Assembly (NCBI GenBank): GCA_029558315.1
Contig: JAKQFQ010000164.1
Coordinates: 1 to 36,091, forward strand
Source: Bacillota bacterium
GTDB lineage: Bacteria; Bacillota; Clostridia; Lachnospirales; Lachnospiraceae
Direction of reading: 5' to 3'
DNA length: 36,091 bases
Of this stretch, positions 1-35,914 are shown piece after piece (position 1 is the first letter of the stretch; each line of letters starts with the position of its first letter). Under the pieces are notes generated by a model. That model worked only from the letters and a program-made list of their open reading frames with translations. It did not search any database and was not told the origin of the DNA. Position numbers and translations under genes: made by a program.

Positions 1-1
1 G

Positions 2-967
2 GCGATTTCAGAGAATGAAGCGCAAGCAACAGATCCTGAGAATTTTAGTAATCTTGTAATTGCACAGGTTACCAATTATGTTAATGTCAGAGATATTCCA
101 AGCGAGGACGGAGAAGTCGTTGGCAAGTTGTATGATGATTCTGTCGGAAGCTTTCTTGAAGAAGAGAACGGCTGGTATAAAATAACATCCGGCAACGTTA
201 CAGGATATGTAAAAGCAGAATATTGTGTTACGGGTGATGCGGCCATTGCGCTTGCGAAAGAAGTGGGTGTTCGAATGGCAACAGTCAATACAACAACACT
301 GAAAGTCAGAACAGAACCCAGTACGGAATCAGAAGTATTAGGCTTGGTTCCAATCGAAGAAGATCTTAGTGTTTTGGAAGAAGTTGATGGATGGGTAAAG
401 GTATCCATTGAGGAAGGCGAAGGCTATATCTCAACGGACTATGTAATTCTTAGAACAGACTTTGTTACAGCAGAGTCCAAAGAGGAAGAAGAAGCAAGAC
501 TTGAAGCTGAAGAAGCTGCAAGAAGGGAAGCACAGGCAGCCGCAGCCGCACAGGCAGCAGCACAGCAGCAGAGCTCCGGAAGCAATTCTACTTATGTTGC
601 TCCAACCATCAGTGGAGATGGCATGGGAACCTCAGTTGCACAATATGCATGTCAGTTTGTTGGTAATCCTTATGTTTACGGAGGCTCCAGTCTAACCAAT
701 GGTACAGACTGCTCTGGATTTGTTATGAGTGTATATTCGGCATTTGGTGTATCATTGCCACATTCGTCATCTGCAGACAGAAGTCAGGGATACGCAGTAG
801 AAGGTGGTCTTGCCAATGCACAGCCGGGTGATATCGTATGTTATTCCGGGCATGTTGGAATTTACATCGGCGGAGGACAGATTGTTCACGCAAGTACCTC
901 AAGAACCGGTATTATTATTTCTAACGCAAGCTATCGTAGCGTTCTTGCGGTAAGAAGAATTTTCTAA
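2..967 (+). CDS. SH3-domain NlpC/P60 peptidoglycan hydrolase, 5' end cut off by the window
   Basis: The frame is open from base 2, so the gene starts outside the window; the ATG at 128 is internal. The readable part is 321 residues. It begins with a bacterial SH3 repeat (VNVRDIPSEDGEVVG), followed by a second one (LKVRTEPSTESEVLG). These usually bind the cell wall. A Glu/Ala/Gln-rich helical linker comes next, then a C-terminal NlpC/P60 domain. The catalytic Cys is in TDCSGFV and the His in GHVGIYIGGG. Such enzymes cut peptide stems of peptidoglycan outside the cell, so a signal peptide is expected upstream but cannot be seen. The gene ends at TAA 965-967, just before a strong terminator. The family call is sure. 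The exact role (cell separation or turnover) is inference. Confidence 0.93.
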   Translation, partial: AISENEAQATDPENFSNLVIAQVTNYVNVRDIPSEDGEVVGKLYDDSVGSFLEEENGWYKITSGNVTGYVKAEYCVTGDAAIALAKEVGVRMATVNTTTLKVRTEPSTESEVLGLVPIEEDLSVLEEVDGWVKVSIEEGEGYISTDYVILRTDFVTAESKEEEEARLEAEEAARREAQAAAAAQAAAQQQSSGSNSTYVAPTISGDGMGTSVAQYACQFVGNPYVYGGSSLTNGTDCSGFVMSVYSAFGVSLPHSSSADRSQGYAVEGGLANAQPGDIVCYSGHVGIYIGGGQIVHASTSRTGIIISNASYRSVLAVRRIF

Positions 968-984
968 TCATACAGACTTACAGG

Positions 985-1010
985 GCTGCAGCGCAAGCTG
1001 CAGCTTTTTT
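985..1010 (+). terminator. Intrinsic terminator of the NlpC/P60 gene
   Basis: An 8-bp perfect stem, GCTGCAGC (985-992 and 997-1004), closes a GCAA tetraloop and is followed directly by six T. It lies 17 bases after the stop codon. Its stem nearly matches that of the terminator behind hpf at 3677. Confidence 0.92.
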
Positions 1011-1109
1011 ATGTAATGGAAAAAAACGCAAAAAATGCCAGCAAGTAAATGGATATAGAGTCAGGTTTTTGCAGGAAGTATTGTTTCCGGAAATTCAAAA
1101 ATGGAATAA

Positions 1110-1139
1110 TTGACAGATTTTTGTTATGGAAGGTAAAAT
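1110..1139 (+). promoter_or_regulatory. Strong sigma-A promoter for a non-coding transcript
   Basis: The -35 box TTGACA (1110-1115) and -10 box TAAAAT (1134-1139) are 18 bases apart. Transcription should begin near 1146. No credible reading frame with a ribosome binding site follows for more than 300 bases, so the promoter appears to drive an RNA or a very long leader. Confidence 0.75.
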
Positions 1140-1145
1140 ATGCAT

Positions 1146-1345
1146 GAGTAGGAATTGTTTTGTATATACTGGATTTAGGGGGGGCAACTCATGCGAAGCT
1201 GTAGGAGTAGTCATAGGAAAACAACATAATGGAGCGTCCCGGTACCTGTTTGCCGTGGCACTCTTTTTTCGTATGAAAAGTTATGCGTGGAAGGTCTGCA
1301 AGATAGCAATCAATAGAGGAAGGACAAGCAAATGATAACACTGAA
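1146..1345 (+). ncRNA. Probable structured non-coding RNA, possibly the raiA motif
   Basis: This stretch follows a near-consensus promoter, is richer in G and C than the flanking DNA, and has no convincing reading frame. It contains a G-run (1178-1184), the self-complementary GGTACC (1241-1246), a TGCC/GGCA hairpin near 1251-1260 and a CGTAT/ATGCG hairpin near 1270-1287. Known background: the raiA RNA motif of Firmicutes is about 200 nt long and is often found upstream of the raiA/hpf gene, which lies at 3141 here. The segments around ATGCGAAGCTGTAGG and GCGTGGAAGGTCTG look like conserved RNA sequence, but I cannot run a covariance model. The ends are estimates. It could instead be the long 5' leader of the lipoprotein gene at 1479. 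Confidence 0.5.
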
Positions 1346-1382
1346 CCGAACTCAAATAAGAAATGTTATCCTAAGATAGGAT
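1334..1382 (+). promoter_or_regulatory. Two mutually exclusive hairpins downstream of the putative RNA
   Basis: GATAACA (1334-1340) can pair with TGTTATC (1364-1370). ATCCTA (1368-1373) can pair with TAGGAT (1377-1382). The two stems share bases 1368-1370, so only one can form fully. They lie between the putative RNA and the lipoprotein start. A switching or processing role is inference; there is no clear T-run for termination. Confidence 0.35.
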
Positions 1383-1478
1383 ACTCTTTATAATAGTATG
1401 GTGGCGCAAAGGGAAGAACAGGAAGCTTATGGCTATAATGATGTAGTGAGTTAACCCGGAGAGGAGAAAAGATTAGTA

Positions 1479-2686
1479 ATGAAAAAATGTGACAGGATAG
1501 TGATATCGTTGCTTAGCTTATTCGTATTTACAGCATGCGAATCGACAGAGAACATCAGTGCAAATGGAACTTCTGGTAATGCAGCTTCCTGTAATGTTGT
1601 ATCCACAAATGAAGTCAGCGCAAATATAGTCAGTGCAAACCTAACCTGTGAAAACTATGTCAGTGGAAATGCAGCGGTATTGGAACGGTGCAGTAATTAT
1701 TATGCTTTGGTGGATCAGAGATATGAAACCATTGCAGCAATGGGTGATGGAGAAGGCAGAACAGAATTTAGTGAGGATGACTGTCAACGTACCAACCTGG
1801 ATTACTTTGATAATGATAGTGATTTAGATACAGCCAATCTTGTCAGTGCTTATGACGAACGCTTGCAGGAGTATGTATATGGACAGTGGAGGTTTGTAGA
1901 GAGAATTGAGACTCGAACGACGGATGTAATACCGGAAGAAACACCGGAAGATTATATAATAGATGATTTCTCGGAACAGGCAGCGGACGAAATTAAGAAG
2001 AATTGTGTTCTCTATATAGGACCTGATATGGCATATATGATGGGCAATGTTCCATTCACTGATATTGAAGAAGAATTTAGGCGTCAAGTTGTAAGAATGT
2101 ATTATGGGGGAGGTGCCTTGGGGGTTCACTGGCTACCCCAGTATTATATTGCACCAATGGAACAGAATCTTGTCTTGGATTATAAAGAAACATCTTTTTC
2201 TGATTTAAGAGAAAGCGACTGCTTAGCTGAAATAGAAAATCTTCAACGAGTCAATATTGTTACGTCCGATTTTAGTCTTCTTGATCGCCATGAGGCAAAT
2301 TATGCAGTCTTTGATGCGCCACACTGGTCCGCAGAAAAGTTTTATTACAGTCCGTCCGAACCGGATGTTTTGTATATGGAATTTTGTGGAATCTGGAAAT
2401 TAGAGAGGGATTACACAGATTATATGATCCTCGTTATATTGAATGGGATCGGATCGATAACCAGAGATTATTTGTAAGTTTTTATGTTTATTCTAAAACA
2501 TATTTAAAAAACGGGGAAGAACTAACTGTAGCAGATATCGAACAAGAACATCCTGAACTGGAATTACCGGATTTATCTGAGATGTCGTGTGAACAGGTTC
2601 AGGAGTTCATAAATAAATTTGAAGACCCAACCTACGAGATTAATCTTGAACTGTTTGAAGTTACAGATAAGAAATTCTTATTTTGA
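1479..2686 (+). pseudogene. Lipoprotein gene with pentapeptide repeats, broken by a frameshift near 2420-2430
   Basis: The first frame starts at ATG 1479 behind GGAGAGGAG and runs 332 codons to TAA at 2477. The protein has a signal peptide ending in a lipobox (FTAC, Cys20), so it should be a lipid-anchored surface protein. Residues 25-64 are eight tandem five-residue units of pattern x-x-S-x-N. The rest is acidic, rich in Asp, Glu and Tyr, and I recognise no known domain. The natural continuation is in the next frame: GIWKLERDYTDY joins to YDPRYIEWDR if one base is restored near 2427, and that frame stays open to TGA at 2686 (about 400 residues in total). This fits a 1-base deletion, either a real mutation or a sequencing error. 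No slippery homopolymer is seen, so programmed frameshifting is unlikely. Function unknown. Confidence 0.72.
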
Positions 2687-2790
2687 AACAAGGCCATGAG
2701 CATATCACACAGCATTTGCAACGGCAAAAGATAGTCAGGAACCATAGGGAAGTTAAGCAAAACCAGCAAGGGAAAGGGGAGATGTAAAAG

Positions 2791-2862
2791 TTATCCACAT
2801 GTAATGTGAATGTAAAAGACTGAAATTATAAGTTATGAACCAACTTATCAACATTATCCACA
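2791..2862 (+). promoter_or_regulatory. Cluster of three DnaA boxes in the 454-base gap before hpf
   Basis: TTATCCACA, the consensus DnaA box, occurs at 2791-2799 and 2854-2862. TTATCAACA (one mismatch) lies at 2845-2853, directly abutting the last box. All three are on the same strand. The gap from 2687 to 3140 is otherwise AT-rich; apart from these boxes and the hpf promoter at 3003-3032 I see nothing in it, and its antisense frames lack ribosome binding sites. No dnaA, dnaN, rnpA or rpmH is in the window, so this is unlikely to be the main origin. Titration of DnaA, or DnaA control of the promoter, is inference. Confidence 0.65.
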
Positions 2863-3002
2863 AAGAATTATGTCGAAAAAGGTAGAAGCGGGAAGATAGA
2901 AAACAAACGGATGTTTTGTGAAAAAACAATAAAATATGGGAAAATAGCAGATAAAACAGAGAACTCATTGTAACAAAAGAAAAGAGAGCGGATTGCAAAA
3001 TG

Positions 3003-3032
3003 TTGCCAAGCGGTCTTGAGATATGATATAAT
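3003..3032 (+). promoter_or_regulatory. hpf promoter (sigma-A type)
   Basis: The -35 box TTGCCA (3003-3008) and a perfect -10 box TATAAT (3027-3032) are 18 bases apart. Transcription should start near 3039, leaving a leader of about 100 bases before the hpf start codon. The DnaA boxes lie 140-210 bases upstream of the -35 box. Confidence 0.75.
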
Positions 3033-3140
3033 AGAACAATCAGATAAGACTTGAAGATAGTTGGAATCTGTGTCAGGTATCGTTTTCTTATGCAGTATGG
3101 TAAGGGAAGATACCAAAAACCTATGAAAGGGATGATTGCT

Positions 3141-3668
3141 ATGAAGTTTGTAATTGTTGGAAAGAATATCGAGGTCACAGAAGGTTTAAGAAGCGCAGTT
3201 GAGGATAAGATTGGTAAGCTGGAGAAGTATTTTACCCCGGATACCGAAGTGCATGTAACATTAAATGTTGAAAAAGACAGACAGAAGATTGAGGTTACGA
3301 TTCCTGTGAAAGGAAATATTATCCGGTCAGAACAGGTCAGCAATGATATGTATGTATCGATTGATCTGGTGGAAGAGATTATCGAGAGACAGCTGAAGAA
3401 ATATAAGACAAAGCTTGTTGATCAAAAGCAGAACATTGAATTTTTCAAACAGGAGTATATCGATAAAGATTTCATGGATGAAGAAGATGTTAAAATTATT
3501 CGTACCAAGAAATTCGATATTAAGCCGATGTATCCGGAGGATGCCTGTGTACAGATGGAACTGCTGGGACATAACTTCTATGTATTCTGCAATGCAGAAA
3601 CCGAGCAGGTTAATGTTGTATATAAGAGAAAAGGCAATACATATGGTTTGATAGAACCGGAGATTTAG
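3141..3668 (+). CDS. hpf: Ribosome hibernation promoting factor, long form
   Basis: This 175-residue protein binds the decoding region of the 30S subunit and pairs ribosomes into inactive 100S dimers in resting or stressed cells. The N-terminal S30AE domain (about residues 1-100, MKFVIVGKNIEVTEGLR) binds the ribosome. The C-terminal domain (about 120-175, KFDIKPMYPEDACVQMELLGH) dimerises. Having both domains makes it the long form usual in Firmicutes. The frame is open further upstream to 3051, but ATG 3141 fits the family N-terminus and has AAAGG ten bases before it. The gene stands alone between its own promoter and a terminator. The family is also called RaiA or YvyD. Confidence 0.96.
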   Translation: MKFVIVGKNIEVTEGLRSAVEDKIGKLEKYFTPDTEVHVTLNVEKDRQKIEVTIPVKGNIIRSEQVSNDMYVSIDLVEEIIERQLKKYKTKLVDQKQNIEFFKQEYIDKDFMDEEDVKIIRTKKFDIKPMYPEDACVQMELLGHNFYVFCNAETEQVNVVYKRKGNTYGLIEPEI

Positions 3669-3676
3669 GATTTGAG

Positions 3677-3710
3677 GGCTGTAGCGAAAGCTGCAGCCTT
3701 TTTATTTTTG
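3677..3710 (+). terminator. Intrinsic terminator of hpf
   Basis: A 9-bp stem (GGCTGTAGC 3677-3685 with GCTGCAGCC 3690-3698, one G-U pair) closes a GAAA tetraloop and is followed by TTTTTATTTTT. It closely resembles the terminator at 985-1010. Confidence 0.92.
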
Positions 3711-24518: not shown

Positions 24519-24543
24519 GATGTTTGTTAATAATGAAATAAAG

Positions 24544-24672
24544 AATCTTCAGGGTCGGGTGTAATTCCCTACCGGTGGTGATGACAGGTAACTGTATGAG
24601 TCCACGACCTGCTTTGGCAGCTGATCCGGTTAGAATCCGGAACCGACAGTAAAGTCTGGATGGAAGAAGAAG
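24544..24672 (+). promoter_or_regulatory. FMN riboswitch (RFN element)
   Basis: The conserved blocks AGGGTCGGGTG, CCCTACCGGTGGTGATGACAG, GAGTCCACGACC, GATCCGGT...ATCCGGAACCGACAGT and AAAGTCTGGATGGAAGAAGA occur in order. The outer stem is TCTTC (about 24546) with GAAGA (about 24663). FMN binding should let the terminator at 24704 form and shut off ribU. Together with the terminator and promoter it fills most of the 376-base gap before ribU. Confidence 0.97.
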
Positions 24673-24703
24673 GATGGTTTTTTTGTGCTATCTAGGATAT
24701 CCG

Positions 24704-35690: not shown

Positions 35691-35776
35691 GGAGAGGTAT
35701 CGAAGTGGTCATAACGAGGCGGTCTTGAAAACCGTTTGCCTTTACGGGCACATGGGTTCGAATCCCATCCTCTCCG
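35691..35776 (+). tRNA. tRNA-Ser (anticodon TGA)
   Basis: The acceptor GGAGAGG (35691-35697) pairs with CCTCTCC (35769-35775) and the discriminator is G. The anticodon loop CTTGAAA holds TGA (35725-35727). A long variable arm (TGCC...GGCA) and the T-loop GGTTCGAATCC are present, as expected for a class II serine tRNA. No CCA is encoded. Confidence 0.96.
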
Positions 35777-35824
35777 CTTTGAATCTTCCCGCGGAAGTAT
35801 AAAAACTTATACGAACCAGTGTTT

Positions 35825-35914
35825 GGAGAAGTACCCAAGCTGGCCGAAGGGACACCCCTGGAAAGGGTGCAGGTCGTTAATAGCGGCGCGAGGGTTCAAA
35901 TCCCTCCTTCTCCG
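35825..35914 (+). tRNA. tRNA-Ser (anticodon GGA)
   Basis: The acceptor GGAGAAG (35825-35831) pairs with CTTCTCC (35907-35913), discriminator G. The anticodon stem CACCC/GGGTG frames the loop CTGGAAA with anticodon GGA. A long variable arm and GGTTCAAATCC T-loop are present. It is 48 bases after the first tRNA-Ser. No CCA is encoded. Confidence 0.96.

Follow-up and report, generated by a model that had tools for sequence, protein, structure and literature searches.

The DNA between an NlpC/P60 gene and hpf on this Lachnospiraceae contig probably contains a stand-alone small RNA gene, which would consist of a vegetative-type promoter, an RNA of about 124 nucleotides and an intrinsic terminator (positions 1110-1269 of the window, i.e., of the entire 36,091-nucleotide stretch that was analysed). 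As judged from sequence, the best reading, and in our view a probable one, is that of a predicted small RNA that is lineage-specific, present in two copies, intrinsically terminated and trans-acting. The original prediction for this locus had proposed an independent and probably structured RNA of about 330 bases, whose place near hpf fitted the raiA RNA motif. The locus probably harbors a real, ordinary and hitherto undescribed small RNA gene of a known kind, rather than raiA. The features involved, all on the plus strand, are the following.

1-967, plus strand: NlpC/P60 gene, cut at the contig start (Pfam SH3_3 and NLPC_P60)
982-1007, plus strand: terminator of the NlpC/P60 gene, from a terminator scan
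1110-1139, plus strand: putative small RNA promoter, TTGACA (1110-1115), 18 bases, TAAAAT (1134-1139), matching 11 of 12 consensus positions
1146-1269, plus strand: predicted small RNA of about 124 nucleotides, delimited by homology between two genomic copies
1188-1238, plus strand: purine-rich core, the most conserved part, running into the 5' arm of the terminator
1231-1269, plus strand: predicted intrinsic terminator, with a stem of 12 pairs interrupted by two mismatches and a run of six T after it
1334-1340 with 1364-1370, and 1367-1373 with 1377-1383, plus strand: two overlapping short stems, read from the sequence
1479-2477, plus strand: orphan lipoprotein-like ORF downstream of the RNA, from the ORF list
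3141-3668, plus strand: hpf gene (Pfam Ribosomal_S30AE and its C-terminal domain)

The main support for the proposed independent RNA gene is a second copy in the same genome. A blastn search with window positions 1020-1478 as the query, in which the window's own genome was among the subjects, located this copy on contig C407 (positions 2213-2374, minus strand) with 78% identity and an E-value of 8.4e-27 (3.3e-27 in the search of the genus genomes). The local alignment of the two copies spans window positions 1109-1272 with a score of 139, whereas the best of 500 shuffled pairs scored 33. Homology begins at 1109, a single base ahead of the -35 box, and stops three bases beyond the T-run (1272), while the flanks appear unrelated, sharing 11 bases at most on the downstream side and scoring 19 on the upstream side, which is under the shuffle mean of 21. 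Since the limits of homology coincide with transcription signals and the flanks are unrelated, the unit that was kept would be that of promoter, RNA, and terminator. The predicted independence of the RNA is thereby supported by a discrete unit that recurs in its own genome. The same limits reduce the RNA from the 270-330 bases proposed earlier to about 124, because the terminator, which is kept in copy 2, closes the common unit. Copy 2 is located after a LOG-like gene (Pfam Lysine_decarbox). Downstream of it (positions 243-1333 of L012, minus strand), a membrane-looking ORF of 73 amino acids is similar to a portion of the ORF that follows it (33% over 66 columns, with an E-value of 1e-7 when only these two sequences are compared), as if the ORFs in this region were partly duplicated.

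The near-consensus promoter of the original prediction was recovered, and TTGACA recurs at the equivalent place in copy 2, where it is followed by 17 bases and a weaker, poor -10 box (TAGTAT). A promoter scan listed 9 promoter-like sites in 900-3300 versus 8.1 in shuffled sequence, so the promoter match by itself proves nothing. The 5' end of the RNA was modeled 7 bases past the -10 box and its 3' end at the T-run. The terminator hairpin (1231-1264, with the T-run at 1264-1269) starts about 85 bases past the likely transcription start and was not listed by a simple terminator scan, but its fold is more stable than that of shuffled sequences in the window (z -2.5) as well as in copy 2 (z -3.5), and all of its 24 paired cells are kept across both copies. 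The RNA would thus be transcribed from this promoter and end at this terminator. The GC content is 45% in 1142-1269, compared with 37% in 968-1109 and 38% in 1270-1478. Over the first 200 bases (1110-1310), which the original prediction described as more GC-rich than the flanks, it is 41% and equals that of the window as a whole.

According to the folding models, only the terminator is clearly structured in the predicted RNA, and the expectation of a structured RNA was not borne out by folding of the window sequence, which was no better than that of shuffles (z 0.71 for 1139-1480, 1.08 for 1139-1345, 0.08 for 1142-1269, and 0.69 for 1146-1269). Whole-RNA folds of copy 2 gave comparable outcomes (z -0.23 and 0.04). 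When folding starts at 1142, the core of the window copy pairs with the 3' arm of the terminator, which then does not form; when folding starts at the likely +1 (1146) the terminator forms, and likewise in copy 2. The alternative fold from 1142 makes an attenuator-like switch possible in the window copy. Comparison of the two copies by RNAalifold yielded 27 pairs, none of which was changed on both sides, and when all helices were enumerated, 3 contained a compensatory pair (n = 2 sequences), as against 4.2 on average after column shuffling, where 240 of 300 shuffles reached 3. The compensatory changes that a structured RNA might display are thus not above chance between the copies, a comparison that is weak with only two sequences. 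This outcome and the lack of a covariance hit are both among the refuting conditions named in the original prediction, and they speak against a conserved structured RNA. Two candidate helices were set aside: a conserved helix around the core, which contains one compensatory G-C to A-U pair (columns 22 and 88) in a count that shows no excess, and a 5' helix of 1142-1148 with 1188-1194, of which 2 of 7 pairs are broken in copy 2 and of which positions 1142-1145 are probably upstream of the transcription start. The two mutually exclusive hairpins that were noticed earlier do exist as overlapping stems (1334-1383), but folding of the region 1320-1400 does not surpass that of shuffled sequence (z 0.40), and the stems stand between the RNA and the lipoprotein-like ORF, beyond the terminator and outside the RNA unit.

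The claim that the RNA has no credible coding frame is supported by the present data. The longest plus-strand ORF over the RNA (1126-1335, 69 amino acids) was covered by the Pfam scan and gave no match, and the alignment of the copies contains single-base gaps at four sites, or, in another alignment, gaps of 1-2 bases at six. Such frame-breaking gaps argue against coding, although with only two sequences the tests of coding, like those of structure, are weak. A possible leader peptide, for which an AUG at 1229 is found 10 bases past an AGGA (11 in copy 2), was rejected, since by eye the frames part after six codons. In 1142-1268, 27 of 128 columns differ between the copies, and these differences are unevenly spread. 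In the 5' part (1142-1187) 15 of 46 columns differ (67% identical), whereas only 5 of 52 do so in the core (1188-1238; 90% identical), with a P-value of 0.0065 for so few that is optimistic because the core limits were picked after viewing the alignment. Within the terminator, the upper stem and loop (1239-1252) differ in 6 of 14 columns, and the 3' arm with the T-run (1253-1268) in 1 of 16.

Assignment to the raiA family was assessed by covariance searches. With Rfam 15 at the gathering score, cmscan of the whole window reported only an FMN riboswitch (24541-24675, 107.6 bits) and two tRNAs (35691-35914), adjacent genes at the contig end that have long variable arms. At E-values up to 10, positions 960-1500 yielded four chance-level matches and the sequence around copy 2 a single match to a human lncRNA family; raiA and 6S were absent from both. 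Likewise, no raiA was found in the window's own genome, and none of 35 genus genomes exceeded the cut-off, with weak matches in 8 of them (E 0.14 to 8.4). As none of 14 control genomes exceeded the cut-off either, the genome searches alone cannot prove the absence of raiA, and more weight belongs to the cmscan run directly on the region. The raiA RNA measures 210 nucleotides in Clostridium acetobutylicum and folds into eight helices and two pseudoknots (PMC11751092); it is preceded by comFC in 74% and followed by the raiA gene in 66% of cases (PMC11706538). The RNA described here is predicted at about 124 nucleotides versus about 210, its ends being predicted as well, and has an NlpC/P60 gene upstream and a lipoprotein-like ORF before hpf, where the usual neighbors are common but not obligatory. 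What remains of the raiA assignment is the position near hpf, which would also be compatible with a raiA (ModT) or 6S RNA that has diverged too far for Rfam; in view of the lack of a match at E up to 10 for either copy, the shorter length, the presence of two copies, and hpf not being the next gene, we consider this highly improbable.

The RNA appears to be confined to this genome within the sample of the family that was searched. No convincing third copy was detected by blastn in 35 genus and 200 family genomes, or by a covariance model (R1) in 35 genus and 397 family genomes. Among the family genomes, blastn reported 11 of 200 including the own genome, the other ten with matches of 23-48 bases and no E-value better than 5e-4; one extra short match came from the own genome (E 0.0077). 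In the genus search 6 of 35 genomes were reported, again including the own genome, with matches in the others of at most 40 bases and E 0.02 or worse. The covariance model was built from the two copies, which themselves score 167-171 bits; counting the own genome, it had hits in 5 of the 35 genomes of the genus (next-best score 26.4 bits) and in 18 of the 397 of the family (next-best score 32.6 bits). The 32.6-bit match has an E-value of 2.4e-4 per genome, which corresponds to about 0.1 over 397 genomes. Of 24 weak loci, 14 were re-scored and the alignments of 8 inspected, and none was judged related. Phages and plasmids contained no match to the small RNA. Pattern searches of viral contigs returned 2, 10, 0, 2, and 1 stretches; those for which the surrounding sequence was inspected (7 of 15) were judged coincidences, and the 12 stretches from the first two of these searches, compared by blastn, had at most 39 aligned bases in common. 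An exact pattern occurred in two stretches of genome contigs, from Chloroflexi and Pseudomonadota, which were taken as chance on the basis of these taxa. Small RNAs typically have a narrow range (PMC11706538), and a literature search by word rather than by sequence yielded no paper that was recognised as describing this RNA.

The genomic context of the window copy is similarly restricted. Of the 35 genus genomes, 34 gave a hit for hpf, and the hpf loci of 29 of the 33 relatives with hpf were compared. Window positions 1013-2784 were matched by none of these 29 loci at E 1e-4. The NlpC/P60 gene and hpf are both present in 12 of the 29 loci, about 0.2-0.9 kb apart versus 2.2 kb in the window, the intervening gap having been inspected in six of the 12 (L065-L070), and the lack of an NlpC/P60 match in the remaining 17 may reflect a short locus, a different neighbor, or divergence. 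From the shorter gaps it appears that the RNA and the lipoprotein gene fill about 1.8 kb that is absent from these relatives. The lipoprotein gene that the original prediction placed between the RNA and hpf is present as a lipoprotein-like ORF, which has no significant Pfam or NCBIfam match, is matched weakly and in part by one of the 34 other genomes of the genus and two of the 396 other genomes of the family, and has no relative in the viral contigs. An ORF in another frame (2384-2686) overlaps its end at 2477 and by eye looks like its continuation, which suggests that a mutation or an error in the assembly may have disrupted the lipoprotein frame near 2400-2440.

For the favored small RNA reading, we propose that the two diverged copies, of which the window copy lies in the accessory stretch from NlpC/P60 to hpf, would each be transcribed from their own promoter and ended at their terminator. 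That the diverged copies have the core in common, each with its own promoter and terminator and among unrelated neighbors, points to action in trans; less certain than transcription and termination, such action would be post-transcriptional and mediated by the purine-rich core. The most likely mechanism, which we put forward tentatively, is Hfq-independent base pairing of the core with pyrimidine-rich segments in other RNAs. A search for Hfq gave no hit in the own genome and was positive in 5 of 14 control genomes; as the assembly is 98.7% complete, Hfq may have been missed. A duplex-energy target search over 37 ORF starts (in the window and 8 kb of C407) gave long, patchy duplexes and no usable target; the best duplex score belonged to a stretch inside the NlpC/P60 gene, where an internal start had been taken. 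Binding of CsrA by the core is the next option, and a considerably less likely one than pairing.

Three other explanations bear on the same observations. The element could be a cis-acting leader, i.e., an attenuator or riboswitch of which the terminator is bypassed in some condition such that the lipoprotein gene is expressed. Both copies stand about 0.2 kb upstream, on the same strand, of genes that by eye encode secreted- or membrane-looking proteins, and the alternative fold from 1142 breaks the terminator; that fold is not predicted in copy 2 nor in the window from 1146, however, and neither copy has a riboswitch or leader match in Rfam. Moreover, neither the downstream genes nor their leaders show a convincing relationship between the two copies (a single weak protein match of 25% over 76 amino acids, E 0.013, in a tiny comparison). 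In addition, a TATAAT at 1389-1394 hints at a possible separate start for the lipoprotein gene, although no promoter was called there by the promoter scan. This TATAAT closely follows the palindrome 1367-1383, which could be an operator of such a lipoprotein gene promoter. On balance a cis-acting leader is unlikely. An alternative in which both copies are what is left of a duplicated or mobile element, devoid of RNA function, would be in line with the absence of the stretch from the hpf loci of relatives, with the presence of the LOG gene beside copy 2 in just 3 of 35 genus genomes (the own genome included), and with the partly duplicated ORFs there. Nevertheless, the limits of the unit coincide with transcription signals, the differences between the copies avoid the core, no inverted repeat of 12 or more bases occurs in 960-3140, and phages and plasmids gave no match, the viral contigs only judged coincidences, which makes this explanation very unlikely.

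The remaining explanation is that of a decoy RNA of which the repeated GGA motifs titrate CsrA. Each copy contains AGGA three times (P about 0.01 per copy versus shuffles) and GGA five times (P 0.04 and 0.01), and the core carries two of the three AGGA motifs common to both copies; the AGGA motif was tested after being noticed. The gene csrA was found in the own genome, beside a fliW-like and flagellar ORFs that were named by eye. CsrA decoy RNAs present repeated A(N)GGA sites in hairpin loops, whereas the GGA sites found here are not clearly in predicted loops and by eye one site alone fits A-N-GGA. Furthermore, the proximity of csrA to fliW would suit a CsrA that is controlled by a partner protein. 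A CsrA decoy is therefore quite unlikely, and the complete scenario, in which a two-copy small RNA from the accessory stretch near hpf titrates CsrA in a bacterium whose csrA neighbors flagellar genes, would be very unlikely; to our knowledge, it would place a Csr decoy outside the groups in which such RNAs are known. Similarity to decoys of the CsrB/RsmZ type consists of several GGA motifs, a short terminated RNA, and csrA in the genome, while the unclear loop position of the motifs and the lack of an Rfam match are points of difference.

Among known systems, the predicted RNA most resembles the intergenic, trans-acting small RNAs that end at an intrinsic terminator, with which it shares, as predicted from sequence, its own promoter and terminator, a noncoding nature, and a narrow distribution; it differs in having two diverged copies. 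The nearest described multicopy analogue that we met is LhrC of Listeria monocytogenes, a small RNA with five copies that acts through CU-rich sites and does not need Hfq for its stability or for binding to lapB mRNA (PMC4132741). LhrC and the present candidate have in common that they are multicopy bacterial small RNAs, and differ in that LhrC has CU-rich sites and five copies, whereas a purine-rich conserved part and two copies are found here. With raiA/ModT (Rfam RF03072) the likeness is that of an independent RNA near hpf, but here there is no covariance match, the RNA is shorter, no complex fold is supported, and the upstream neighbor is another one. The analysis thus removes the false lead of an unusually arranged raiA RNA before hpf, and provides a candidate small RNA gene without an Rfam family that was recognised from its paralogous copy alone. 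Should CsrA or genes of the cell envelope prove to be its targets, a little-studied group would gain a further regulator; as known from sequence, it takes its place among the many small RNAs of narrow range.

Further observations concern the immediate surroundings of hpf. Upstream of hpf, exact copies of TTATCCACA, which we take to be the DnaA box, occur twice in the window (at 2791-2862), where 0.4 would be expected in its 36 kb. The loci L065-L070 each have three, one of those in L070 being on the other strand, and none was found within 600 bases of hpf in 22 other genus loci, with L080 left out. Finally, the terminators after the NlpC/P60 gene (982-1012) and after hpf (3675-3705) are 90% identical over 31 bases.
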